DNA of 31,034 bases from a virus, in IMG/VR virus record IMGVR_UViG_3300017772_000068, positions 1-31,034 of that record; one strand, 5' to 3'. This document shows positions 1,329 to 27,837 of this stretch, in pieces (the first letter of the stretch is position 1; each line of letters starts with the position of its first letter). A program made the translations under genes and the position numbers. Under the pieces are notes generated by a model. It did not search any database, was not told where the DNA came from, and saw only the letters and a program-made list of their open reading frames with translations.

Positions 1329-2609
1329 ATGTCAGATAAAAAAAGACGCAGAATTTCTGCAACCCAAGAAACAAGCACAGTTGAATTAGTTGAAACTATT
1401 CAAAGACCCACAGAAGAAATTAAAGAAGTAAAAGAGGAAACTCAAGATCCCCACGCACAGTTCTACGATGAGAGCGGCGAGTTCTTATGGGACGCATACG
1501 AAGCTACGTGTGTTACTAAAACCAGAAAACCAAATCCACATATTAAGACTAGACATGGTGATAAGGTATATTCAAGAGAACCTTATGCACAAGAGCTATA
1601 TGATATTTTAGTTGAAAATAGACCTGAAATTAAACCAAGTTTAAATATTGGAGAAATCCATACAGGTAATATCTATGCAGTAGACCAAGAATGGATTACT
1701 GTTGATATAGGATATAGAGAGTCTGTATATGTAAAGGCTTCAAAAGAATCTGAAGAAGTTAGAATGATGTTGCCTGGTGAAGAGACAGCGGTCTTAATTA
1801 CAGAAACAAAGGGTACATTAACTGGATCTATTACAGGTGGAGTGAAACATAAAACTTTCATGGACCTAAGAGCTGGTATCGAAGAGGGTAATACTGCCTG
1901 GATCGGTAAGGTTAAAAATATGATTGAGAATGGTGGTTATATTGTAAGAGTACAAGGTATAGATTGCTTTATGCCAGGTTCACTTGCAGGTATTAATAAA
2001 CTATCTGACTTTAGTTCTATTGTCGGTGAAGAAATTTATGTAGTACCAGTTAGTTTCTCTCCAGATAGAGGTACAATTGTAGTATCACATAGAAAATATT
2101 TACAAGCTTTAATTCCACAGGCTATTAATAACTTAAAAGAAAATATACAAGAACCTAAAGAAGGTAACGTAACAGGAACTGCAAAATATGGGGTCTTTGT
2201 TGAGTTTGATAAATGTTTAACTGGAATGATTCATAATAATGAATTAAATGAAGATACTTTAGTTAGATTTAAGAATAGAGATATTAAACCAGGAGAGCCA
2301 ATTAACTTCTTTGTAAAAGATATTATTAGTAATAACAAAATTACCTTAACTCAAAAAGAGGGGACTGCTGTTAATCCATGGATTAATATTTCATCAAGAT
2401 ACCAAATACCTTCTATTGTTGCTGCAAAAGTAAAGACTAAAAAGGATTATGGCATATTTGTAAATATTGAAGAGGGCGTAACTGGTTTATTACATGTAAG
2501 CGAGCTTCCAGATAATAAACTTGAAGAATATATGATAGGTGATTCTTTAGATGTACAAATTACTAGAATTGATGAATCGTCTATGAAGGTATTTTTAAAA
2601 TTACCCTAA
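1329..2609 (+). CDS. Phage S1-domain RNA-binding protein (ribosomal protein bS1-like)
   Basis: After a charged, probably disordered N-terminus (1-45) and a linker domain, four consecutive S1/OB-fold RNA-binding repeats can be read at about residues 107-175, 187-256, 276-343 and 359-426. The last two are the most canonical, with GTAKYGVFVEF...GMIH and KTKKDYGIFVNI...TGLLHVSEL, the usual signature of S1 repeats; the first two are more divergent, as are the ribosome-docking domains of bacterial bS1. The likely role is binding mRNA or the 30S subunit to favour phage messages, since genes in this window have almost no Shine-Dalgarno sequences. It is shorter than cellular bS1, which usually has 4-6 repeats. 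Other S1 proteins such as an RNase partner are possible. It is preceded by an A/T promoter-like element. Confidence 0.82.
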   Translation: MSDKKRRRISATQETSTVELVETIQRPTEEIKEVKEETQDPHAQFYDESGEFLWDAYEATCVTKTRKPNPHIKTRHGDKVYSREPYAQELYDILVENRPEIKPSLNIGEIHTGNIYAVDQEWITVDIGYRESVYVKASKESEEVRMMLPGEETAVLITETKGTLTGSITGGVKHKTFMDLRAGIEEGNTAWIGKVKNMIENGGYIVRVQGIDCFMPGSLAGINKLSDFSSIVGEEIYVVPVSFSPDRGTIVVSHRKYLQALIPQAINNLKENIQEPKEGNVTGTAKYGVFVEFDKCLTGMIHNNELNEDTLVRFKNRDIKPGEPINFFVKDIISNNKITLTQKEGTAVNPWINISSRYQIPSIVAAKVKTKKDYGIFVNIEEGVTGLLHVSELPDNKLEEYMIGDSLDVQITRIDESSMKVFLKLP

Positions 2610-2663: not shown

Positions 2664-3974
2664 ATGCAAAAACTAAACGTATCTTCGGATAGGCAATCTA
2701 TTCTAAACGCTAGCCAGATTGGAATTGAGTTTGAGTTTTATTCTAATCTAGAATTAGAGGAAACACAAAAATCTATATCTGAGTTAGTAAATAGAAAGAT
2801 TAAGTTAGAAGATAAAGCACATTCTGATTTCCAGCCAAGCGCTGATGTCTTTAAGATGGAACCTGATATGTCAGGTGGTAAAGGCTTAATTGAACTCGTA
2901 ACGGGTCCTATGCCTTATAGAAATGCTAGAATTGTAATTCAAAAAATGTTAAGATGGATTGAAAAGAATGGTTATACAAATGACCGAGCTTCAATCCACC
3001 TTAATATGTCATTTAACCCTGATTATTTAGTAGATAAAAATATGGTTCAACACATGTCTGTGTTGAAATTTATTCTAGAGTTTGATGAGGCTAGAGTATA
3101 CAAGTATTTCCCAAATAGAGAAGATTCTACTTATGCAAAGTCTATTAAATGGATTATGCCTAAACATGAAGCTTTTTACTATAACGAAAATCTAATTAGT
3201 TCAGATAACTTTACTTTTGCTAATACTAAATATTATGGTATTAACTTTGAAAAGGCACAGAAGAACTATTTAGAGTTTAGATATTTAGGTGGTAAGGATT
3301 ATGAGAAAAGAACAGATGATATTCTACATCTTGCAGATGGATTTATCATGTCTGTCTTTAAATCTTGTTTTAATCCTAAATTTACTCCTGAGAATAAAAT
3401 CGAACTTAAGCGTATCTTAGAGAAGAATAAACCTCTAATGGAAATGCTAAAAGATTACAAAGCAGTAAATAAATATTGGAAGAAGATAAATATATTAGTG
3501 GACTTAACAGACAACGAGCAAGTAATCGAAGTACAATGGAACAGATTTAAACATAAAGTTCTAGCGTTACTCGCACACGGTGGTATGGAAGAGGGTATTA
3601 TTAACTACGATTCCGACTACGGTATGGTACAAGTTAAAGGTGGTAAATTTAAAACTGCATACTTGTTAGATGGCTTTGAGTTTATAGATTGCGAGCTATC
3701 AGGCAACATCGAAAATAGTGCTATTTATGGTGGTATTGTTGATGGTGCACAGATAATAAGATCACAACTCTATAAAGGTTGTGAGGTAAAGGATTCAAAA
3801 GTTGAGTCTTCTTATGTACATGGTAGTTGTCAATTAACAAATTGTTTTGTCTTTGGAAGAGATGGTATTTTCAAAGGTAGAATGATTGGAGGTATTTTCA
3901 GAGAGGGTGGTATTGGTCCACATGCTAGATTTGATGATACTGAAATAGTGGTAAGCACAAAAATAAATAGTTAA
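2664..3974 (+). CDS. Amidoligase-like (COOH-NH2 ligase) protein with C-terminal beta-solenoid-like domain
   Basis: The N-terminal part resembles the predicted amidoligase family (ATP-dependent carboxylate-amine ligases of the glutamine-synthetase-like fold). GIEFEF at residues 20-25 matches the first-strand acidic motif, MEPDMSGGKGLIELVTGP (65-82) the D-x-S...E-(L/F)-V-(T/S)-P motif, RASIHLNMSF (108-117) the conserved histidine strand, and NYLEFRYLGG (201-210) a late E-x-R motif. Such enzymes form amide bonds on peptides or proteins; the substrate here is unknown. From about residue 325 to the end the sequence changes to short hydrophobic/Cys/Gly-containing rungs (FIDCEL, NSAIYGGIV, GCEVKDSKVE, SCQLTNCFVFG), which looks like a small beta-solenoid. 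It ends one base before the next start (TTAAAATG), so it is coupled to the baseplate genes. The family call is by motif only. Confidence 0.66.
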   Translation: MQKLNVSSDRQSILNASQIGIEFEFYSNLELEETQKSISELVNRKIKLEDKAHSDFQPSADVFKMEPDMSGGKGLIELVTGPMPYRNARIVIQKMLRWIEKNGYTNDRASIHLNMSFNPDYLVDKNMVQHMSVLKFILEFDEARVYKYFPNREDSTYAKSIKWIMPKHEAFYYNENLISSDNFTFANTKYYGINFEKAQKNYLEFRYLGGKDYEKRTDDILHLADGFIMSVFKSCFNPKFTPENKIELKRILEKNKPLMEMLKDYKAVNKYWKKINILVDLTDNEQVIEVQWNRFKHKVLALLAHGGMEEGIINYDSDYGMVQVKGGKFKTAYLLDGFEFIDCELSGNIENSAIYGGIVDGAQIIRSQLYKGCEVKDSKVESSYVHGSCQLTNCFVFGRDGIFKGRMIGGIFREGGIGPHARFDDTEIVVSTKINS

Positions 3975-3975
3975 A

Positions 3976-4818
3976 ATGAGTGAAATAAGATCAGGTAACG
4001 AAACTAACTTAAGCACCGAAAGATCATTCGGCGATAGTTGTTTAAACGCATTCCTTCAAGAATTGGGTGACGACATGACTGGTGCATGTATGGTTCCTGT
4101 TAACCTACCTCAAAGAGAAATTATTAATATAGTTAAAAGAGCTAAGAAATGGTTCTATAAAAACTATGAAGATGCTGTTAGAGAGAACTATTATCATGTT
4201 CCAGCAGAAGTATTTGCTTCTACGTATTTTAAAAACCACAGGTCTTTAAATTTACCTAATGCAAGCGTGGATGGTTCAGGTGCAGTATTTTCTGTATTTG
4301 GTGTCCATGATACTGGTTCTGGTTTTAATTCTACTGGAGGTGGATTAGATGTAAGATTTCAAAGCGGTGGAGACTTCGCTTTAGAAAGAATGTTATTTAG
4401 AGGAATGTATGAGGGTGCTGGAGCTGCGGAAGCTGCAGAAGAATTACAATACTATGTATTAAATCAATCTTTAGCTGATTTGTCTAGACAGATTATGGAA
4501 AATCCTATTTCATTTCAATACTCAAGATTAACTGGTGAGTTAAAGATCTTAGGTGATACGCCTAAGAAGGATGTAATTCTACATGTATACGAAACTCTAC
4601 CAGATTGTGCTATTTATGAAGATGAAATATTTTTTAGATATTGTTCTGCTAAAATAAAGCAGTCTTTAGGTGCCAAACTTGGTATCTTTAAATTTGCATT
4701 ACCTGGTAATGTAGAATTTGATTATGACGCAATAAAAGACATGGGAGACACCGAATTAGAGTCGATTATTGAAGAAATTAAGGGTGACGAAGGTGTGGAC
4801 TGGATGTTCCACTCATAA
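3976..4818 (+). CDS. Conserved-looking phage virion protein upstream of gp25, role unknown
   Basis: This 280-residue acidic protein has REIINIVKRAKKWFYKNYED (about 47-66) and FSVFGV (about 109-114). Its C-terminal half carries ILHVYETLPDCAIYED, then FFRYCSAKIKQSLGAKLGIF and a LPGNVEFDYDAIK segment. The order of a Y-rich strand, a helix ending in K-x-x-x-G and an L-P-G-N-V-x-F-D loop is one I associate with virion proteins of large myophages near baseplate or neck genes, but I cannot assign it to a named T4 protein. The context, immediately upstream of gp25- and gp6-like genes, suggests a baseplate or tail-terminator component. A candidate A/T promoter element separates it from gp25. Confidence 0.6.
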   Translation: MSEIRSGNETNLSTERSFGDSCLNAFLQELGDDMTGACMVPVNLPQREIINIVKRAKKWFYKNYEDAVRENYYHVPAEVFASTYFKNHRSLNLPNASVDGSGAVFSVFGVHDTGSGFNSTGGGLDVRFQSGGDFALERMLFRGMYEGAGAAEAAEELQYYVLNQSLADLSRQIMENPISFQYSRLTGELKILGDTPKKDVILHVYETLPDCAIYEDEIFFRYCSAKIKQSLGAKLGIFKFALPGNVEFDYDAIKDMGDTELESIIEEIKGDEGVDWMFHS

Positions 4819-4838: not shown

Positions 4839-5195
4839 ATGGATTTTTACATTAAACATATAGGTGACCCTAACTATCAAACAACTGTTGTACAAAACAA
4901 CGGTGAGATAGAGCAGTTATTGACACAGATCGAGAATACTCTTTTTACTAGAAAGAATGATGTATTAGGTGAACCTGATTTTGGATGTAATTTAGAAGAT
5001 TTGGTGTATAGTTTAAACCAAAATGAATTCCAAATTAGAAACGAGATTGAAAAACAACTATCTAATTACGTACCCCTTTCTAGAAAATACGATACGTCAG
5101 TAGATGTTAAGTTTTTTAAAGGTGAAGTTAGAGATATTTGTTATGTAGACATTACTGTAAATAATGAGTACACAATCCAAGTAAATTTAAGATAA
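4839..5195 (+). CDS. Baseplate wedge subunit, gp25/gpW family
   Basis: The 118-residue protein has the length and signature of the T4 gp25 / P2 gpW wedge family: a helix followed by LFTRKNDVLGEPDFGCNLED (about 35-54), with the conserved L-x-T...G-E-x-x-F-G-x-x-L pattern, then two C-terminal strands. In contractile tails this protein joins the gp6/gp7-type proteins to the sheath-proximal part of the wedge. It is directly followed, 7 bp downstream, by the gp6-like gene, the order also found in P2 (W then J). The start is the first ATG, abutting an A/T-rich element. Confidence 0.88.
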   Translation: MDFYIKHIGDPNYQTTVVQNNGEIEQLLTQIENTLFTRKNDVLGEPDFGCNLEDLVYSLNQNEFQIRNEIEKQLSNYVPLSRKYDTSVDVKFFKGEVRDICYVDITVNNEYTIQVNLR

Positions 5196-5202
5196 ATAAC
5201 TA

Positions 5203-7032
5203 ATGGCAGAATTAAAATTTTTAAGTACACTAAGAACCAGCGCTAACCAAATTAAGGTTGATGCTCGTACTTACATTGCAAGAGTGTATAATCGTGCAAA
5301 CACTCTATTTACAGAGGCTTCACCATTTGCTCAGATTGTAAATGTAATGGCAGAGCTTGGTGAACTAATTATGTTCTATGTAGAAGATGCTACAGTAGAA
5401 CAAAACATTTATACTGCTCAGCAACCAGAGTCTATATATGGTCTATCAAGATTAACTGGCCATGATGCAACTAGAGGTTTTGCTGCAACTGGCGAGATTG
5501 AATTTAGATGGAAAGTAGGTGCAGATCTTGGTAAGATTGCAGGTACTGGTTTAAATATTGATGCTAGATCAGAACTATCATGTGAATTAAATAGTTTAAA
5601 ATACACTATATTAAGTCAACAAGAAAAGTTTAGATTGGAAAAATCTAATAAACTTAAAGTTAAGTGTGCTATTATTCAGGGTCAGTTTGAACAACAAACA
5701 TTTACTGGAACTGGAGAGCCAATGCAATCTTACAATATAAAAATTAATGGGTTAACAGATCATTCAAAAGTTACAGTTGCTATTAACGGAGAGCAATGGA
5801 CTAAACATGAGTCCATGTATGACTTATTAAACGAAGAAAAAGGCTATATACTTAAAACAGGTATTTCAGGCGGGTTAGATGTTTACTTTGGTACTGGTAA
5901 TTTTGGTGCAATTCCACCAGCTGGATCTGATATTCAAATTGAATATGTAAAACACAAAGGTGCTTTAGGTAATATTGACGATGGTCAAGATATTATTTTT
6001 CAATGGTTATCAGATGGTGTAGATTCTAATGGCGATGATTTTGACTTAAATGAATACCTAGAGGTTAATGTAACTTCTTCACCTAAAATGGGCGCAGACA
6101 AAGAGTCGACTGAATTTACTAAGTTAATGGCACCTCTCGCTTCCAAATCTTACGTCTTAGCAACTCCAGACAATTACGAGTATTTCTTATCAAGATATGG
6201 TATGTTCTCGTATGTGGATGCTTACAATACCACATCGGATCAGTATTTAGATGATGATAATGTTATTTATATTTTTGCTGTACCAGATATAAAAAGAAAA
6301 CTATTAGCAAGTCAAGACTATTTCTCTATTCCACAGAATGAAATGTTCTTTGACCAAAACGAATATGACAAAATGTCACAAGTAATTCAAGATAGTGGCC
6401 AACAAATGGTTACTACTGAAGTGGTATTTGTTAAACCTCAAATTAGAAAATATAGCTTAGATATTAATATTAGATATTTTGAGGGCTATACGAAACAAGA
6501 AATCTTTAGCGAAGTTAGAGCTAGAGTAAGTGACTACTTATTGAATATTACAAGAAGAGATAAATTGCCTAAATCTGATATTGTGTATATTCTAGAAGAA
6601 ATTGATGGTATTGATGCAGTAAATGTGAGATTCATCTCGGAAACAGAAGAGACAGCTAGACGTCTAGGTTACTATGAGTCTAAAACTGTATCTGTTGTTC
6701 CACAAGAACCTGTAGTTTTAGAAGATATTGGTAACGGCAAACAAAAATATATTTTCTTTAAGCGCATTGAGGAAGTTAAGACCGTGGATGTAGATGCTAC
6801 TACCCAAATTCCTTATACAGTTGCAGGCTTAGACGAATGGGGTGACATCATCATGGAGAAAGAAGAAGTCGCTGTCTTTAGAGGCGGATGGCAAGACCGA
6901 GATGGTGACCCTATTATTGACGACGCCCGTATTAATGCTGAAGCTGCACTTAGTGTGAATTTTGATGAAACGCCGGTACCTAGAACAATATACACTAGAG
7001 TACAGGCTGGAAATAGAAAAGCCTTGAAATAA
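5203..7032 (+). CDS. Baseplate wedge protein, gp6 / baseplate J-like family
   Basis: The 609-residue protein starts with the helical N-terminal region typical of T4 gp6 relatives (FLSTLRTSANQIKVDARTYI, then an acidic helix ending near residue 70). A central insertion of beta-type sequence and a C-terminal J-like half follow, with KPQIRKYSLDINIRYFEGYT and a RRDKLPKSDIVYILEEIDGI segment at about 410-470, where J-like proteins have the strand and helix of the (gp6)2-gp7 core bundle. Its job is to form the inter-wedge ring that controls sheath contraction. It is close to the 660 residues of T4 gp6. It lies 7 bp after the gp25-like gene and overlaps the next start by one base (TAATG), implying translational coupling. 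Confidence 0.85.
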   Translation: MAELKFLSTLRTSANQIKVDARTYIARVYNRANTLFTEASPFAQIVNVMAELGELIMFYVEDATVEQNIYTAQQPESIYGLSRLTGHDATRGFAATGEIEFRWKVGADLGKIAGTGLNIDARSELSCELNSLKYTILSQQEKFRLEKSNKLKVKCAIIQGQFEQQTFTGTGEPMQSYNIKINGLTDHSKVTVAINGEQWTKHESMYDLLNEEKGYILKTGISGGLDVYFGTGNFGAIPPAGSDIQIEYVKHKGALGNIDDGQDIIFQWLSDGVDSNGDDFDLNEYLEVNVTSSPKMGADKESTEFTKLMAPLASKSYVLATPDNYEYFLSRYGMFSYVDAYNTTSDQYLDDDNVIYIFAVPDIKRKLLASQDYFSIPQNEMFFDQNEYDKMSQVIQDSGQQMVTTEVVFVKPQIRKYSLDINIRYFEGYTKQEIFSEVRARVSDYLLNITRRDKLPKSDIVYILEEIDGIDAVNVRFISETEETARRLGYYESKTVSVVPQEPVVLEDIGNGKQKYIFFKRIEEVKTVDVDATTQIPYTVAGLDEWGDIIMEKEEVAVFRGGWQDRDGDPIIDDARINAEAALSVNFDETPVPRTIYTRVQAGNRKALK

Positions 7033-16381: not shown

Positions 16382-19300
16382 ATGGCAAATATAAGTTTTA
16401 CACTTAATACTACTGGATTTTCTACTGCTGCCAGTGCGATAGCAAACTGGGGGACAGGAGGTACAATTACTGCTTGGGTTGATGACAGTGATAATACTGG
16501 TTATGTTACAACCGGTGATACTGTTTATCAGGTGAATGATAATAATCCGGATGCAGCTTCAGGTACTTTAAGTAGTGGATTTGCAGGGGGAATGGATTTC
16601 TATGCGTTCGAGCAGCCAAATGATAATAGTATTGTTGCCACACAAATATCTAATTCTGGTCTAATAAGTGCGTCAATAATAACGACTAGTACGACAACTG
16701 AGGAGCCTACAACTACAACTGAGGAGCCTACAACAACGACAACATTGCCAGAGTTTACATGTTCTGAAGCTAATGTATCAATACAAGCCGGTGCAGTCGG
16801 AGATACTGTTACAGCAGCTGTAGATGAGGGTGTAGTAGACAGTATTATACCTAGTACATATCAACTAGGTAGTACAACTTATGATGTTGATGTTATTGCA
16901 CCCGCTGGATATTTAAATTCCGGTGTTGCTATAGAATGCCAAGTTAGTGCGACAGGTACAACGACAACTTTAGCTCCAGCGATTGCTTGGAATAATGATG
17001 CCACATATAATGCTCCGGCCGCGGCATCTAGTACAACTAGGATTTTTACAATTACAAATAACTCAACTGCATTTAACTCGAGTAACATTGTGCCTAACCC
17101 TAGTACAGTTGATTGGATTTCAACTAATGTATCTTCAACTGTAACAGGTGGTAGTATTGAATTTAGTATTGATGCTAACCCAACCGCTAATGGTAGAAGT
17201 CAAGCTTTTACATTAGAACATCCAGAGGGCGGTGGTGTAACTTCTACAAGTTTATTAATTTCACAAACCGGTGGTAATAACCTTCCAGCAGCTCCTGATT
17301 TTAGTAGGACTATGATTAAGAATGGTACTCCAATAGCTTTAAATTTTGCTAGTGGTAGTGGTTGGTCAGTTGGCTCAGGGCAACAGAGTAATGTATCTGA
17401 TGCTGAAGATCAATTTGGTAACGGATTAACTATTGAAATAACTAGTGTGCCGCAAAATGGTAATATTCAGGATGCAAATGCACAGGGGTCAAATTTATCG
17501 ACAGGTGCTGTTTTAACTGGAAATCAGCCATCTATAATATATACGCCAAATACTGATTATACGGGTAATGATGCTTTTTCATATACTGCAATAGATAGTG
17601 ACGGTGGAACTGCAGTTGGAACTATTACAGTTACAGTTAACCCGCCACAAAATCAAGCCCCAGTTCCTGGAGATGCATTATATGAGATTAATGGATTTGG
17701 TATTAATAATATATCAACACAACAAGATCTTGCTTCAGCTGGTTCAACAGATGATAATGATGCGCCAGCTCTTTTAACATATACTTTATGTGATGCTACA
17801 GGTAATACATTAACTGAAGCACAAGTTGCAGCAAGTCTAACGAACGGTGATTTTGTAGTTAACGCAAATGTAGGTGCTTTTACGTTTACTTATACAAAAA
17901 AGAGTGGTCTTAATTTAACACCTAATAATAGTGATCTAGAAGAGGATTTTTATTACAAGGTAACAGATACAGATGGTGAAGAATCAACCGGTGTGGGTAC
18001 AATTACATTAAGAACTTTAGCACCTGGTAATAATCCTCCAACATTTGCAAACCCTTCATTTAATTCTACTTTGGATCAATGGAGTAGTACTGGTGGTACA
18101 GCATCTGCTTCTGACTCTAATACTGGAGATCAATTAACATGGAGTATCGTATCAGGGCCAACTTCTTCGAGTGGCATTACTAACCCAGGTTCTTTAGATT
18201 TAGACAATACAACTGGTGCTTGGACGTATGAAGCTAACTATAATATAACACAGCCTGATCAAATTACATTTGTAATACAGGTTTATGATGGGTATGTGAA
18301 TGCGTCTACCCCATATACTGCAGTGATAACTGTTAATCCAACCGCGGCCATTGCAATAAAGTATTCTGCATTTGTAACAAACTCGGACGAAGCTTGTTCA
18401 GCAACTAGAAGTAATACTGGTTATTTAGATGCATCTGAACAGAATACTAGCATAGCTGATTTAGCGCCAGGAGATCGAATTTATTTAGATGCAGCTTTTG
18501 CAACGCCGATTAGTGCTTCTAACCCAGCTACTAGATGGTTATCGGTTTCGGCTACTAGTGGTGGTGATGCTAAAGCTATACAGTTTGATACATTTGGTTA
18601 TGATAAAATAGAAACTATTGTAGAATGTCAAGTTAGTTTAGGGAATGCATGGGAAATAACTGTTAACTTTGATGAAGATGTAAATGATTTATGTGCAGGC
18701 ACTTATGAGTACGGAGGCCAAACTGTTTGGCAAAACGTAATAGATGCTACAAATCCAAGTAATCAGCCAGTCTTATTAAGCCAAGTTATTGCAGCAGGAG
18801 GACAGATATTTACTGATGAAGTTATAGCTAATACATATCTTAGTAATTCTGCGCCTGCTGAGTTTACAGCATTAACAGGTTACTATAATGATAGTGTTTC
18901 AGCCGATGCTGACAAATACTTTGAATTTCAACAAGGTGCTTGGGTAGAAGGAAGTGATGGATATGCACAAGATTGCCCAGAAAGAATAAAATACCAAACA
19001 TACGATGTTAGTGTTTACTATAATACAGTAGATCCTATTAGAATTGATAATGTTTGTTTAGCTGATGATAGTGATTTAGTTCTTACAAAACTTTATTTTA
19101 GAGCTAATCAAGAAGATGGAGTAGGGTCTTTATCTGAATTGGCTAAATTACAATACATATTACAACATAATATAGTACCTTTTACTTCATTAGAGGCTGC
19201 GAACCAAGTTGATTATGGTTTATCATGGCCAAGTACTACGTTCTTAGCTAGTAAGGTTAATGTTGATAGTTTTAATAATGCGACTTACTCATTAGACGCA

Positions 19301-22300
19301 GATAGGCGATTTGCTGTTTGGGAAAACTATAACTCAAGTGGTTATACTGGTAACTATGTATGGAAGGGTGTAGTTGGAAACGATACAGATTTATTACAAG
19401 GTAGTACTGGTAATGCTAGCACCGAAGATACTAATATAATTTTAGGTACATGTAGTACTCAGTTTGAAAGACCTGTAGGTTCTTCTACATTTGAAGTAGG
19501 TCAGTCGATTGCTTCTAGAGAAAATGTATTTTATGCATTTTTATCATGTGTTGCGAGATTCCAAGATGGATCTCCTTATTGGAATTTATATGTCATAGAT
19601 GGTTTACATAAAGATACTGATAATGGTAGTTCTTATATAAAAGAATTGCACGAGGTTATTGGTGATAGAGGAATAATAAATGGTCCTACTGTATTAGAGT
19701 GTATGTCAATGCAGCATAAAATTGTTGCTGTTAATATTGATGATGCTCAAGATATATTAGATAATATAACAGAATATAATAATGATTCTATTAGAACTGT
19801 TCAAGTTAACCCAGTTGATTTAGGGCTATCCTCTGCGGCTGTAATTAATTATGGATATACTGATTGTGAAGGTTGTTTGATGCAAACAGAGTTGCCCCAA
19901 ACATACACATTGGCGACTGTTGATGATGCTGATATTATTAACAAATCAATTCCTAATTTTAACCTAGAAAAGAATTATAGTTTAGATGATATTTCTAAAC
20001 CACTATTAAGAACAAACCCTAAATTATCAACTAACGCGAAGTTAGTAGTTAATAGTAATGGTAAAATGTATATTGAGTCAATAGAGGCTACAAAAGAATT
20101 AGCATCAGTTGAATATAAAAAATGGGCAGTTAATAAAGATGGAGAGTGGTCATACGATCTACAAAGATTCTTTAAAAATACTAAAACACCTGCAGACCAA
20201 ATATACAAAATAAAAGAGTCTTACTCAAACTTTGCAGTACAAGATACTTTTGAAAATCAAATAGAAGAGGATTACCATTACGGTACAGTCTATAACTATT
20301 CTAAGATACATGATGAAGACTTTAGAATGATGGCTCCTATTTGGTTAGATAAAACAATACCTAACAAATTTGTAATCTTTAGAGTAAAAGATCCTATTGG
20401 TACTTTAGACTTTGATACACAATCTAATTTAGATAATATAAAAGAGATTTTAAAGAATAGTGAAATTGTAAAAACATTTGATTTATCTAGAGATTCTGAA
20501 TTAGGTACATATATTAGAAACCATATACAATCTGAGTCATTCCCTAAAACTCCAATTACAATGAACTTTGATAAATTACAAAGGTCTTCATTTAATGGTA
20601 TTGATTTAGAAAATGGAGGGTTTACTTCTAAAGGAGAGTATTTAGATAGCGATTTTATTAGTCAAGATTCTACGTTAATCGATGCTAATGAGTTAATTAC
20701 AAGTGGGTTCCAAAGAAATAAATTAGCATGTGCAAATTTAATTAACCTAGAGTTCCTATTTAATGATGACGCTGCTACTGATTATTCTGTTAGTAGATAT
20801 TTTGGTTTATATGTAAATGATATTGATTCAGGTTACGGTACATTAGATTCTGCAAATACAGGAAGACTTAAGTTTAAAAATGTTAATTCATATATTAATA
20901 GCGAAAATTCATCTGCTATTCCACCATATAAATTAATATCTGAAACTCCTACATTAGGGTACGCGGCAACATCTGATAAATTCTATAAAATATCTCCAAA
21001 GACAGTATATAACCCTAGTAACCTAGAGTTAAATGTTGAAGATTCTAGAAATTCAATTGCTTCAGAAATTAAATTAGCTGAAACTGGAAATTCAATCGAT
21101 ATAAAGGTTGATGGAAAACCAGGTAGTGACTTTGTAAAGGTAAGCATCTTAGAGAACCCTGCTGTAAACGATGGGTTTGCAATATTCCCTTCAAAAGAAC
21201 AGACATATAGACTTAAGTTTACTAGGCTAATTCCACAGCAATCATTAGGACAAGAGGATTGGAAATTTACAATAGTTAATCCTACTGATGGGCAATTGTT
21301 AGAGTTTGGACCTATTTATATTGATGGACAGGGTATACAAGGTGTTGCTACTTATATTCAAAATAGAATTGGAGAGGAAGACCAATTTACTGGAGCAAAG
21401 GTATATCCAGAACTTTACAATAATTTAAACATTGAGGTAGAGTCAGATAGATCTATTATATTGTCAGAAAAAAGAGCTACATTAAAACCATTACAGCCTG
21501 ATTTTATTCCATGGCAATCAAATGGTGTTAATAATTCTATTGTTAGAATTGAAGAGCTGCAAGTACCTTATGATATTGATAATAATACATTCTTTGCGTT
21601 AGATATACCAGCAGGTCAATTTGGTGGAGTTAATTTCTCTAACCAAGGAACCATACCTCAAGTTACAAGTGCAATAGTAAAATCTATTAATTCTATAGAT
21701 AATGGGTTTACAGCACTATCATACGATGGAGCTGACCACTTCTATATTAAAACAGATGTACAAGGTTATAGACTATTATCTGCCGGTATTGCAATCCCTA
21801 ATGCAAATGCTAATCAGTGGATTAGTGTTGATTCAAATAATTTAGATGTAAATAATTTACTTAGATTAGATATTAATGATTGTGATAGCCCAGAGAACTG
21901 TAATACAATTAATAATAGTTCAATTTATTATTTTAATGGCGGTAATTCAACTGGCAAGTCAATATTAGTAACATTAGATTCTGCTAGTGATATTAATGTA
22001 AATGATTATATTAATACAAAATCTAGAGGGATCTATAATAAAGTTATTGATATTGTAGATGATATTGAAAGATTACCTTTACAATATAAGAAAATTGTAT
22101 TGGAAAAACCTAATACGATTGAGGCTGGTGAAATTAAAACCTATGCAGATAATCTAGTTAAAGTAGGTTTATTTTCTGCGTTTGATATTCATGATATGAA
22201 TTTTGATTTTTATGATACTTCAAACTCAGACCTAAAAGAGTTAGTTTACGAGACGCCTGCTAATATAGCATACGAGCCGGAACAAGATGATTCAAATGAC

Positions 22301-24937
22301 ATATACCCATTTGGTAGTAAAGAGAATACAGAATACACGTTAAATCCAGTTGATTATTTTAGCGGATTAAGTGATATTTTATTAGAAGAACAAGCAGATG
22401 AGTTTAATGAAAATCAAATTACTAGTGAGTTTGATAGATTACAAGAAAACTATTTAAAAGAATATGCTATCAATTCAAGAGTAGTTCCTTCTATTAATAA
22501 ATGGGTTTTAAAAGATAGCTTAACTGTTAGAGAACAACCATACTACCTAAACGCTAATGAGGCTTTCGGTAGATCTAATTTTGCACCTGATTTATCTGCC
22601 GATGGTAGAAATAGATTAGGTATGACACATGAATGGTTTTACATTAATAATTTACCAGCTTATTTTAAGAATAACGCAGGTAGTGATGCTAATCCTGTAT
22701 ATAGGCTAAATGATTCTTTTAGTTATATTAACTTTATGGATAACTTTGAGATTACTCCTGCTATATTTAAAGATACTAATTATGATTATTTTGATAGATT
22801 CTTTGTAACAGAAGGATTCGAGACAAAGGGCAATAATAACTATAAGACTTTTGTAAAAACATCTAGACAGAAAAAGTATACTAGAGTTGAAGGTGGTAAT
22901 AATACTGCATTTGCAAGTACTATATTTAAAGGTTTAAAATTTATATTTAAAGGTAGAAAAGAGTTTACTGCCTCTAATCCAGTAGATTTTATTAAGTCTT
23001 CTGAATTTAATGGATATAGATTTAGTATTTTACTAAATGTAAAAACAGCACAAGAATCAAATGGTATCGACTATGAAGTGATACAAAATAAAAAGTTTAA
23101 ATTTGCTGTCTTTATGATTTCATTAAGTCTAGATGATTTATGGTCAGATGGTACTTTAAACAGAAAATTATTATATGAATTAAACCATTCATTAGTTTGG
23201 AAAGCAGAAAACCTAACATTTGAATATTCAGATATTAAAATCGATGGAGCTCTTAACTTACGAGATGCTAATTTTACAGACCCAAGTGCTTCTAATTATT
23301 TAGAGGTAAATGGATTCCAACATACCGATGGTTCAATGCCTCAATTTTTAGAGCAAATTAATAAGGATGATGATTCTAAGTTTGGTAACTTAATAGTTAA
23401 GATAGAATCACCATTCGGTGAGATGTTCTTAAGATTAAATATCGCAAGGTTAGATGGACAAGATACTTTAGTATTAACACAACCACCTAAAGATATTTCA
23501 GATGGTGATAATGGTGACGGGTTAGATTCAAATGGTGTTCCACTAACACCAAATGCAAATTTACAAAATATACCTGCGTATTTACAATCAACTGCAGAAT
23601 ATACTTATGAAAAGGGAGGTATAAATGCATATAAATCTATTTTAGATGCATTATCCGCTAGAGATGTAGCGACAATGTTATTAAGAGAACCTAACAATAT
23701 AGTATTTACAACCGTAAATAACGATGGCCAAGTTTTAAATAACCAGTTTGTTATCAATTTAGAAGATGGTACTGAAATTGTAAAAGACTCTAAAGTACAA
23801 ACTATTCCTGATACGGATAAGCCAGAATCTTTTAAACTGTTTTCAGGTAATATTGGTTATGATTTAACAGATGGTTTCACCTACTATCCATTCCTAGTTA
23901 GACAAAATGGTGGATATACAGTTGATACTAAACCTGTGGTTACTTTTACAGATGTATATAGCCACATGAAAACTAATACTTTACAGAGTACATCGGATTC
24001 TACAGAGATAATTTTAGAAGAACAAATGTATAAACACTCTCTAACAGATATAAATGAAATTAATCTTGCAAAAGATTACTATAAGAGATATAATAGATGT
24101 GGTGTTGCATTTAACTTAGGATTTATATACGACGGTGGTACTCATGATAATCAATGGGGTTATATTAAAAACCATTTCTATAGAAAGGTAAATGAATTTA
24201 ACGCCGCATCGGTAACTAAACTATCTACGTCTACAGATAAACTACCTCTTTACCCATTAATTGGTGAAGTTGCTATTGATAAAAAAGACGTACATGTGTT
24301 TAAATCTTCATGGGATAAAAACTATTATACTCGATCTTTATCCGGTGGAAATATTGAGCAGGTACCTGGTACATTTGAAACTAAAGAAGAGAAATCATAT
24401 TTGGCTTCAACTATTATGAAAGTAAAAGATAGCTATAATTTACTTAATTTTACTTCAGAGTATGTTGGGTCAGAAGAGGAACAAGACGTAATTTTATTAG
24501 ATAATACTAATACTACTGATTTAGTTATATTTGAAAATAAAAATAACATTATTGTAGATTTTTATATTACAGATACTATTAAAGATAAATTATCGTCGGA
24601 TGGAGTATTCAATGCAATTCAACAATATGTTGCAGTGGCTGATTCTGCTGAAGATAAAACCACTTTGGTTGATGATGCTCAACTTTATATTGAAGAAAAT
24701 TTGGTCAACCTATTTAGCCTAAATCAAATTAAGCTATTTACGCGTAGAATCAAAGGACAGTTTTCAGCTTTTGAAAATGCAACTACTATCGACGCATTAG
24801 ACGATGGTGGATATACACAAGATCAAAACTTTACTTTTAGGGCTCACGAACAAAAGCCCCTTAATTTTAGATTGATATATAATAAAAGATTAGGTTACTC
24901 TTATAGAATAAGACCTATGATAAAAATAACGTCATAA
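16382..24937 (+). CDS. Giant modular tail protein: adhesin-type N-terminal half fused to a phage structural core
   Basis: The protein has 2851 residues. Reading from the N-terminus there is a small domain (1-99) and a Thr-rich linker with TTEEP repeats (100-123). A ~65-residue module with a P-A-G-Y-x-N-S-G motif (about 125-190) and a second TTTTLAP linker follow. A BACON-like domain spans about 200-298 (DWISTNV...FSIDANP...LLISQTG). Three cadherin/Ig-like domains come next (about 300-420, 420-548, 548-652; YTPNTDYTGNDAFSYTAIDS is typical), then two Cys-containing modules (about 655-750 and 755-865) and an unrecognised domain (866-1185). From about 1190 the style changes to a long Asn/Asp/Tyr-rich region beginning LLRTNPKLSTNAKLVVNSNG and including WLDKTIPNKFVIFRV, which I associate with large myophage tail proteins. 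The N-terminal half probably binds host surface glycans; the rest likely anchors it to the virion. Confidence 0.7.
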   Translation: MANISFTLNTTGFSTAASAIANWGTGGTITAWVDDSDNTGYVTTGDTVYQVNDNNPDAASGTLSSGFAGGMDFYAFEQPNDNSIVATQISNSGLISASIITTSTTTEEPTTTTEEPTTTTTLPEFTCSEANVSIQAGAVGDTVTAAVDEGVVDSIIPSTYQLGSTTYDVDVIAPAGYLNSGVAIECQVSATGTTTTLAPAIAWNNDATYNAPAAASSTTRIFTITNNSTAFNSSNIVPNPSTVDWISTNVSSTVTGGSIEFSIDANPTANGRSQAFTLEHPEGGGVTSTSLLISQTGGNNLPAAPDFSRTMIKNGTPIALNFASGSGWSVGSGQQSNVSDAEDQFGNGLTIEITSVPQNGNIQDANAQGSNLSTGAVLTGNQPSIIYTPNTDYTGNDAFSYTAIDSDGGTAVGTITVTVNPPQNQAPVPGDALYEINGFGINNISTQQDLASAGSTDDNDAPALLTYTLCDATGNTLTEAQVAASLTNGDFVVNANVGAFTFTYTKKSGLNLTPNNSDLEEDFYYKVTDTDGEESTGVGTITLRTLAPGNNPPTFANPSFNSTLDQWSSTGGTASASDSNTGDQLTWSIVSGPTSSSGITNPGSLDLDNTTGAWTYEANYNITQPDQITFVIQVYDGYVNASTPYTAVITVNPTAAIAIKYSAFVTNSDEACSATRSNTGYLDASEQNTSIADLAPGDRIYLDAAFATPISASNPATRWLSVSATSGGDAKAIQFDTFGYDKIETIVECQVSLGNAWEITVNFDEDVNDLCAGTYEYGGQTVWQNVIDATNPSNQPVLLSQVIAAGGQIFTDEVIANTYLSNSAPAEFTALTGYYNDSVSADADKYFEFQQGAWVEGSDGYAQDCPERIKYQTYDVSVYYNTVDPIRIDNVCLADDSDLVLTKLYFRANQEDGVGSLSELAKLQYILQHNIVPFTSLEAANQVDYGLSWPSTTFLASKVNVDSFNNATYSLDADRRFAVWENYNSSGYTGNYVWKGVVGNDTDLLQGSTGNASTEDTNIILGTCSTQFERPVGSSTFEVGQSIASRENVFYAFLSCVARFQDGSPYWNLYVIDGLHKDTDNGSSYIKELHEVIGDRGIINGPTVLECMSMQHKIVAVNIDDAQDILDNITEYNNDSIRTVQVNPVDLGLSSAAVINYGYTDCEGCLMQTELPQTYTLATVDDADIINKSIPNFNLEKNYSLDDISKPLLRTNPKLSTNAKLVVNSNGKMYIESIEATKELASVEYKKWAVNKDGEWSYDLQRFFKNTKTPADQIYKIKESYSNFAVQDTFENQIEEDYHYGTVYNYSKIHDEDFRMMAPIWLDKTIPNKFVIFRVKDPIGTLDFDTQSNLDNIKEILKNSEIVKTFDLSRDSELGTYIRNHIQSESFPKTPITMNFDKLQRSSFNGIDLENGGFTSKGEYLDSDFISQDSTLIDANELITSGFQRNKLACANLINLEFLFNDDAATDYSVSRYFGLYVNDIDSGYGTLDSANTGRLKFKNVNSYINSENSSAIPPYKLISETPTLGYAATSDKFYKISPKTVYNPSNLELNVEDSRNSIASEIKLAETGNSIDIKVDGKPGSDFVKVSILENPAVNDGFAIFPSKEQTYRLKFTRLIPQQSLGQEDWKFTIVNPTDGQLLEFGPIYIDGQGIQGVATYIQNRIGEEDQFTGAKVYPELYNNLNIEVESDRSIILSEKRATLKPLQPDFIPWQSNGVNNSIVRIEELQVPYDIDNNTFFALDIPAGQFGGVNFSNQGTIPQVTSAIVKSINSIDNGFTALSYDGADHFYIKTDVQGYRLLSAGIAIPNANANQWISVDSNNLDVNNLLRLDINDCDSPENCNTINNSSIYYFNGGNSTGKSILVTLDSASDINVNDYINTKSRGIYNKVIDIVDDIERLPLQYKKIVLEKPNTIEAGEIKTYADNLVKVGLFSAFDIHDMNFDFYDTSNSDLKELVYETPANIAYEPEQDDSNDIYPFGSKENTEYTLNPVDYFSGLSDILLEEQADEFNENQITSEFDRLQENYLKEYAINSRVVPSINKWVLKDSLTVREQPYYLNANEAFGRSNFAPDLSADGRNRLGMTHEWFYINNLPAYFKNNAGSDANPVYRLNDSFSYINFMDNFEITPAIFKDTNYDYFDRFFVTEGFETKGNNNYKTFVKTSRQKKYTRVEGGNNTAFASTIFKGLKFIFKGRKEFTASNPVDFIKSSEFNGYRFSILLNVKTAQESNGIDYEVIQNKKFKFAVFMISLSLDDLWSDGTLNRKLLYELNHSLVWKAENLTFEYSDIKIDGALNLRDANFTDPSASNYLEVNGFQHTDGSMPQFLEQINKDDDSKFGNLIVKIESPFGEMFLRLNIARLDGQDTLVLTQPPKDISDGDNGDGLDSNGVPLTPNANLQNIPAYLQSTAEYTYEKGGINAYKSILDALSARDVATMLLREPNNIVFTTVNNDGQVLNNQFVINLEDGTEIVKDSKVQTIPDTDKPESFKLFSGNIGYDLTDGFTYYPFLVRQNGGYTVDTKPVVTFTDVYSHMKTNTLQSTSDSTEIILEEQMYKHSLTDINEINLAKDYYKRYNRCGVAFNLGFIYDGGTHDNQWGYIKNHFYRKVNEFNAASVTKLSTSTDKLPLYPLIGEVAIDKKDVHVFKSSWDKNYYTRSLSGGNIEQVPGTFETKEEKSYLASTIMKVKDSYNLLNFTSEYVGSEEEQDVILLDNTNTTDLVIFENKNNIIVDFYITDTIKDKLSSDGVFNAIQQYVAVADSAEDKTTLVDDAQLYIEENLVNLFSLNQIKLFTRRIKGQFSAFENATTIDALDDGGYTQDQNFTFRAHEQKPLNFRLIYNKRLGYSYRIRPMIKITS
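16694..16734 (+). repeat. Tandem 21-bp repeat encoding TTEEPTT linker
   Basis: ACAACTGAGGAGCCTACAAC occurs at 16694-16713 and again at 16715-16734, exact over 20 bases with a 21-bp period. It encodes a Thr/Glu/Pro linker between the first and second domains of the 2851-aa protein. Confidence 0.85.
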
Positions 24938-27030: not shown

Positions 27031-27837
27031 ATGAAAGACAAAATAAAAAATATACTCTCGAACAAGACTCTAGTGACATTTATCGCTGGAGCTCTTGTCG
27101 TTATGTTATTTCTTAGACAGTGTAATAGTATTGAGAATTTAAAACAAGATGTCAAGTTAGCACAAGAAGATGCTGGTAGACAACTTAATAATTTTAAAGC
27201 GGCTCAAGACTCTGTTACAATATTAAGGAATGATAATGGCGATCAGCTTGCTCAGATTAGATCGTATGAATTTGATTTATCAAATATGCAATCTAGTCAA
27301 GCTAAGTTAACGAAGAAGTATCAGAAAGCGTTAGCATTAAATAAAGATTTAAAAGAGGTTAACTCGTTAATCTCAGCTAACTTAGAAATTAAAGATAGTC
27401 TAAATGTAACTACTACAACTGAGACTATAGACACGACAACTACTAAGGTTACATTTTCATCTGCTGAAGATTTTGGCAATGGTAACTCTAGAGAATTAAC
27501 AGGGTTTTCTACCTTTAAATATGAATTTGAACAGTTTAAAGTATTAGAAACTAAATTTGAGTTAACACAAACTCTAAGCTTAATGGCAGCAATTGAGAAC
27601 GTAGATGGTGCTGATAGATTAAAATTATCTACAAGCTACCCTGGATTAGAAATTAAAGATATTGAAAATATTAATTTAGTAAATAGCAGATTAAATAGAC
27701 AAGACCAAAAGAAATCTAGATGGTTAGTTGGTTTTGGAGTTGGATATGGTATTAACTTAAATAACGATCAAGTAATTAGCACAGGGCCTTCAATAGGCGT
27801 GGGACTTTACTGGTCACCTAAATTTTTACAATTTTAA
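27031..27837 (+). CDS. Membrane-anchored coiled-coil protein with outer-membrane-like C-terminus (spanin-like candidate)
   Basis: The 268-residue protein has a short basic N-terminus and a transmembrane segment at about 13-28 (LVTFIAGALVVMLFL). A Cys at 31 follows but no proper lipobox. A coiled coil spans about 33-115 (SIENLKQDVKLAQEDAGRQL), then a TTTTETIDTTTT segment. The C-terminal strand pair WLVGFGVGYGINLNN / SIGVGLYWSPKFLQF alternates Gly/aromatic residues and ends in Phe, like outer-membrane beta-barrel termini. Bacteroidota phages often encode such inner-membrane coiled-coil proteins with GxGxGY-type ends, sometimes proposed as spanins. Envelope disruption at lysis, or an envelope-crossing tail cofactor, are both possible. 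It sits between fibre and tail genes with no endolysin or holin visible nearby. Confidence 0.58.
   Translation: MKDKIKNILSNKTLVTFIAGALVVMLFLRQCNSIENLKQDVKLAQEDAGRQLNNFKAAQDSVTILRNDNGDQLAQIRSYEFDLSNMQSSQAKLTKKYQKALALNKDLKEVNSLISANLEIKDSLNVTTTTETIDTTTTKVTFSSAEDFGNGNSRELTGFSTFKYEFEQFKVLETKFELTQTLSLMAAIENVDGADRLKLSTSYPGLEIKDIENINLVNSRLNRQDQKKSRWLVGFGVGYGINLNNDQVISTGPSIGVGLYWSPKFLQF

Follow-up and report, generated by a model that had tools for sequence, protein, structure and literature searches.

The window, that is, the whole stretch of 31,034 nucleotides of viral DNA that was analysed, contains on its plus strand an ORF at 2664-3974 that is separated by 1 base from the next ORF, which begins at 3976. 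This ORF, the predicted parts of its product and the neighboring genes are as follows.

1329..2609, + strand, S1-domain RNA-binding protein (PF00575, 2.8e-27)
2664..3974, + strand, amidoligase of glutamine-synthetase (GS) fold with a C-terminal pentapeptide-repeat-like solenoid, as predicted (436 aa, ATG start)
2715..3578, + strand, predicted Amidoligase_2 / glutamine-synthetase-fold catalytic core with helical extension (residues 18-305)
3594..3971, + strand, linker with conserved N314 and predicted beta-solenoid tail (residues 311-436)
3976..4818, + strand, T4 gp13-like neck protein (PHROG 211 'head-tail adaptor Ad2', 2.2e-9)
4839..5195, + strand, gp25-like baseplate wedge protein (E about 1e-4, which is below the Pfam cut-off; supported by synteny)
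5203..7032, + strand, gp6 / Baseplate_J baseplate wedge protein (Pfam and PHROG matches)

The preliminary description had placed this gene one base from a virion-protein gene in a baseplate operon. The spacing and the virion gene stand, but the adjacent gene is not a baseplate gene because it codes for a T4 gp13-like neck protein, and the baseplate genes gp25 and gp6 come next. Besides its PHROG match, the product of 3976-4818 has a profile match (hmmsearch) to T4 gp13 at 1e-4 and a Foldseek match to the T4 portal-neck-tail complex at 2.2e-9, although the model used for the fold comparison is only moderately confident (pLDDT 64). The S1-domain protein sits inside this neck/baseplate cluster, and the T4 neck structures matched include Hfq, which raises the possibility that the RNA-binding protein is virion-associated. 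Elsewhere in the window, two small putative metalloprotease-like genes at 573-1294, present in only some relatives, have a weak M78/SprT-like match and a match to PHROG 15610 (protease), and a very long ORF of 2851 aa (16382-24937) lies between tail genes.

Predicted catalytic core and C-terminal tail of the 436-aa protein

The protein is very probably an amidoligase. It matches the Pfam family Amidoligase_2 (PF12224) over residues 18-127 with an E of 4.1e-7 and 30.6 bits, exceeding the curated cut-off of 22 bits, and the four motifs that had been quoted for it are all present in the ORF, namely, GIEFEF (residues 20-25), EPDMSGGKG..ELVT (66-80), IHLNMSF (111-117), and LEFR (203-206). By mapping onto the GS superfamily these presumably represent the metal-ligand glutamates and histidine and the phosphate-binding arginine. 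E22, E24, E77, H112, K189, E204, R206, and N314 are identical in 91/91 distinct homologues, so that none of them has lost the presumed acidic ligand residues, and E66 and D68 are kept in 89/91; this invariance of the motif residues extends down to about 25% identity. The GxExE / EPD.S / EL.T / H.N.S / E.R motifs and the GS-type fold are shared with the phage amidoligases of Amidoligase_2 and the GS-like COOH-NH2 ligases, of which the phage members were reportedly predicted by Iyer et al. in 2009. The kind of enzyme is already known. PHROGs places the protein in family 33777 (function unknown), as it does 20 of 47 aligned relatives, one of the 47 matches phrog_2443 'amidoligase enzyme', and a search of NCBIfam with the window protein assigned no family.

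Structure prediction of core and tail, which had been suggested as a check, gave an AlphaFold model of the 436-aa protein with a mean pLDDT of 90.2 and a pTM of 0.80 from an alignment of 49 sequences drawn from the window and the IMG/VR loci only. When this model was compared with the PDB by Foldseek, glutamine synthetases ranked first (E 8.6e-4, probability 0.99), but at about 10% identity and with TM-scores so low (about 0.27) that the fold match is one at the superfamily level. The predicted core is thus GS-like, glutamine synthetase being the best match among solved structures, and the substrates of glutamine synthetase, Glu and ammonia, are not indicated for the window protein. Against viral models the best match, over the full length, was UniProt A0A6J5PQ40 from an uncultured Caudovirales phage, an uncharacterised protein with the same two-part architecture (TM 0.84, 23% identity), and proteins named amidoligase enzyme, including that of Atu_ph07 (E 2.6e-10), came next. 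A chance motif match was rejected in view of the profile match and the GS-like fold. Values of dN/dS of 0.05-0.08 for the core and 0.08-0.13 for the tail indicate purifying selection on both parts; these values and the invariant motif residues led to the rejection of a catalytically dead remnant.

The C-terminal ~115 residues are confidently modelled as a beta-solenoid, as the preliminary description had surmised. In the AlphaFold model it consists of short strands at residues about 321-424, with a pLDDT of 87-97 by block except for the last block (67), and Foldseek against the PDB also returned chains of the SV2 luminal domain, which we take to be a pentapeptide-type beta-helix, over about 100 columns. 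A family profile searched against PDB sequences matched the tail to the pentapeptide-repeat proteins McbG-like, Qnr, and MfpA with E from 1e-4, and in one relative, L087, the tail matches Pentapeptide_4 at 5.6e-6, which is under the Pfam cut-off; the window tail alone had no pentapeptide match. A strict five-residue periodicity was not significant, since the hydrophobic period gave p 0.56 at 5.0 and a marginal, uncorrected p of 0.045 at 5.2. Compared to McbG-like, Qnr, and MfpA, the window tail is short and degenerate, with a spacing of 5-6 residues, and below Pfam cut-offs, and there is no reason to suppose that it binds gyrase. The sequence matches allow the more precise name pentapeptide-repeat-like for the tail. 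No description of an amidoligase-pentapeptide fusion was found in the literature searched, where one match mentions both terms separately, and the fusion to a solenoid, along with the neck/baseplate locus and the lack of a GATase_6 or GATase_2 match in the records searched, sets the window protein apart from other Amidoligase_2 phage amidoligases.

Distribution and gene neighborhood

In a tblastn search of annotated phages, six records from uncultured huge phages (462-735 kb) matched >90% of the protein at 31-39% identity; two of these records, LR756501 and LR756503, agree in length and match coordinates. Short matches came from two records of Agrobacterium phage Atu_ph07 and from Salicola phage SCTP-2. 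From scans of IMG/VR, 80 (of 96 relatives), 26, 5, and 6 further loci were taken, and a scan of GTDB gave one contig (L128), in a Bacteroidetes bin, where a protein of the same two-part design is encoded and the accompanying long ORFs look phage-like. The tail is present in 88 of the 91 distinct homologues (sequences over 400 aa), those of the 462-735 kb phages among them. The three that do not have it, Atu_ph07 gp196 and SCTP-2 gp124 and gp125, have long insertions in the core; to judge from these distant relatives, the core can in general do without a tail. Atu_ph07 gp196 has the same core as the window protein, scores above the PF12224 cut-off, and is encoded near a portal gene, whereas in SCTP-2 there are two tandem copies in which the EPD motif is eroded. 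The tandem SCTP-2 copies lie at L084:8924-12684, with a ClpP-like gene close by.

In the window lineage the gene order is fixed: tail/baseplate-hub genes, which include a Phage_base_V protein, are followed by the S1-domain gene, the amidoligase gene, and the gp13-like, gp25, and gp6 genes; some members carry an upstream insertion of two small genes. The S1-domain gene is the conserved upstream neighbor in the window, L082, and L122 lineages, and its family occurs in 83 of 123 loci. In the L085-L119 lineage, where the S1 gene family was not found next to it, the amidoligase gene mostly adjoins the tail genes u323 and u2161 in divergent orientation. Since the order differs there and tail genes still adjoin, the linkage survives rearrangement. 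A neck, tail, or baseplate family lies within the fetched flanks of 117/123 loci; these loci are contig fragments, many of them from close relatives, and therefore do not amount to 123 independent events.

Possible function and alternative explanations

Because the two-part enzyme recurs in the neck/baseplate setting of many giant phages, it probably modifies a protein during assembly. The linkage to neck and baseplate genes across distant phages favors a role in virion assembly and does not prove it, since gene linkage reflects co-inheritance and not physical interaction and most of the loci are close relatives. We tentatively propose, giving it slightly less than an even chance, that the gene belongs as a conserved component to the neck/baseplate module, is presumably expressed late, and codes for an active GS-fold amidoligase that is docked by its solenoid and modifies or cross-links a neck or tail/baseplate-hub protein during assembly. 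What the computations show is the family and fold of the enzyme, the intactness of its motif residues, the solenoid, the purifying selection, and the synteny with neck/baseplate genes. The ligase would use ATP to phosphorylate a carboxylate, either the side chain of Asp or Glu or a C-terminus, and the activated carboxylate would be joined to an amine, which could be an amino acid, a peptide, or a Lys side chain. Docking or oligomerisation through the surface of the pentapeptide-repeat-like solenoid may bring the core to the protein that it modifies, which would most likely belong to the neck or to the tail/baseplate hub. That the substrate is a virion protein at all we regard as possible rather than probable, and that the solenoid-positioned enzyme provides a neck or tail protein of these giant phages with an isopeptide or an added amino acid is more doubtful. 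We know of no tailed phage in which a post-translational modification step of this kind has been described.

Other phage amidoligases are reported in PMC10580990 alongside a glutamine amidotransferase. In the 14 records that carry the window-type gene, seven of which are fragments or of uncertain completeness, neither GATase_6 nor GATase_2 was found (0/14 for each), while the cellular controls were positive in 14/14 and 12/14, respectively; the search was for these two class II families. This negative result disfavors channelled ammonia as the donor and favors a free amine.

The main rival explanation, a serious one that we nevertheless consider unlikely, is that the enzyme acts on the host cell envelope by modifying some surface molecule or a precursor of peptidoglycan, for instance, for superinfection exclusion or lysis tuning, and that its gene merely lies among late genes. 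Lysis genes can be late too, and there is a weak spanin-like ORF in the window at 27031-27837. Moreover, the cell wall has been proposed as the target of other phage amidoligases, and an envelope role has been suggested for the phiEco32 enzyme (Iyer 2009, cited in PMC10580990). On the other hand, the N-terminus has no signal peptide apparent by eye, so that action on the envelope would need cytoplasmic precursors; the reported amidotransferase partner was not found in the 14 records searched; and neck/baseplate genes are the linked partners in divergent lineages. The same tight linkage to structural genes would suit a mainly structural role in which the fold is retained, the protein being an assembly chaperone or a part of the virion in which the solenoid caps neck or tail parts or joins them. 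A parallel exists in type VI secretion, a relative of phage tails, where pentapeptide-repeat domains of unknown function are found fused C-terminally to a spike chaperone (DUF2169; PMC11883445). This explanation is improbable, as all 91 sequences keep the key acidic residues, His, and Arg of the motifs, and invariance down to such low identity is hard to explain without catalysis.

Less probable still is a RimK-like modification of a host or phage translation protein, such as an S1- or S6-type ribosomal protein, tied to the adjacent S1-domain gene. The S1-domain protein is encoded upstream in the window lineage and in L082/L122, and a simple motif scan found a Shine-Dalgarno match at 0 of the 17 window gene starts (926-30476), so that S1-type recognition may matter; missing Shine-Dalgarno sequences and A/T-rich leaders, such as those of the window, are expected of Bacteroidota hosts. 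Beside the amidoligase genes of the L085-L119 lineage no S1 gene family was found, while the link to tail genes persists, and RimK is an ATP-grasp enzyme and so has another fold. If, as we propose, the target is a neck or tail/baseplate-hub protein, then the neck/baseplate locus and the conserved solenoid, in phages of up to 735 kb, leave a small number of virion proteins as candidate substrates, which makes the question testable by mass spectrometry; no substrate of a phage amidoligase turned up in the literature found.

N-terminal leaders and host hints in relatives

In L082 (LR756500) and L120, for example at L082:16265-20938, many otherwise unrelated ORFs have a common N-terminal leader such as MKYILEYEEFLLE, which resembles the capsid-targeting sequence of T4. 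The leader pattern, which was written after viewing these loci, two overlapping stretches of one phage, occurs in 16/49 of their ORFs and in 2/1020 ORFs of the marine relatives of the window; a T4-type leader of this kind is not seen on the window protein. The leaders of the SCTP-2 amidoligases are suggestive by eye and do not match the pattern. As to hosts, besides the relative in the Bacteroidetes bin, a protein of a 636 kb phage (L088:9751-10740) begins with a signal-peptide-like segment and ends in a stretch that by eye resembles a type IX secretion sorting domain, which suggests a Bacteroidota host.
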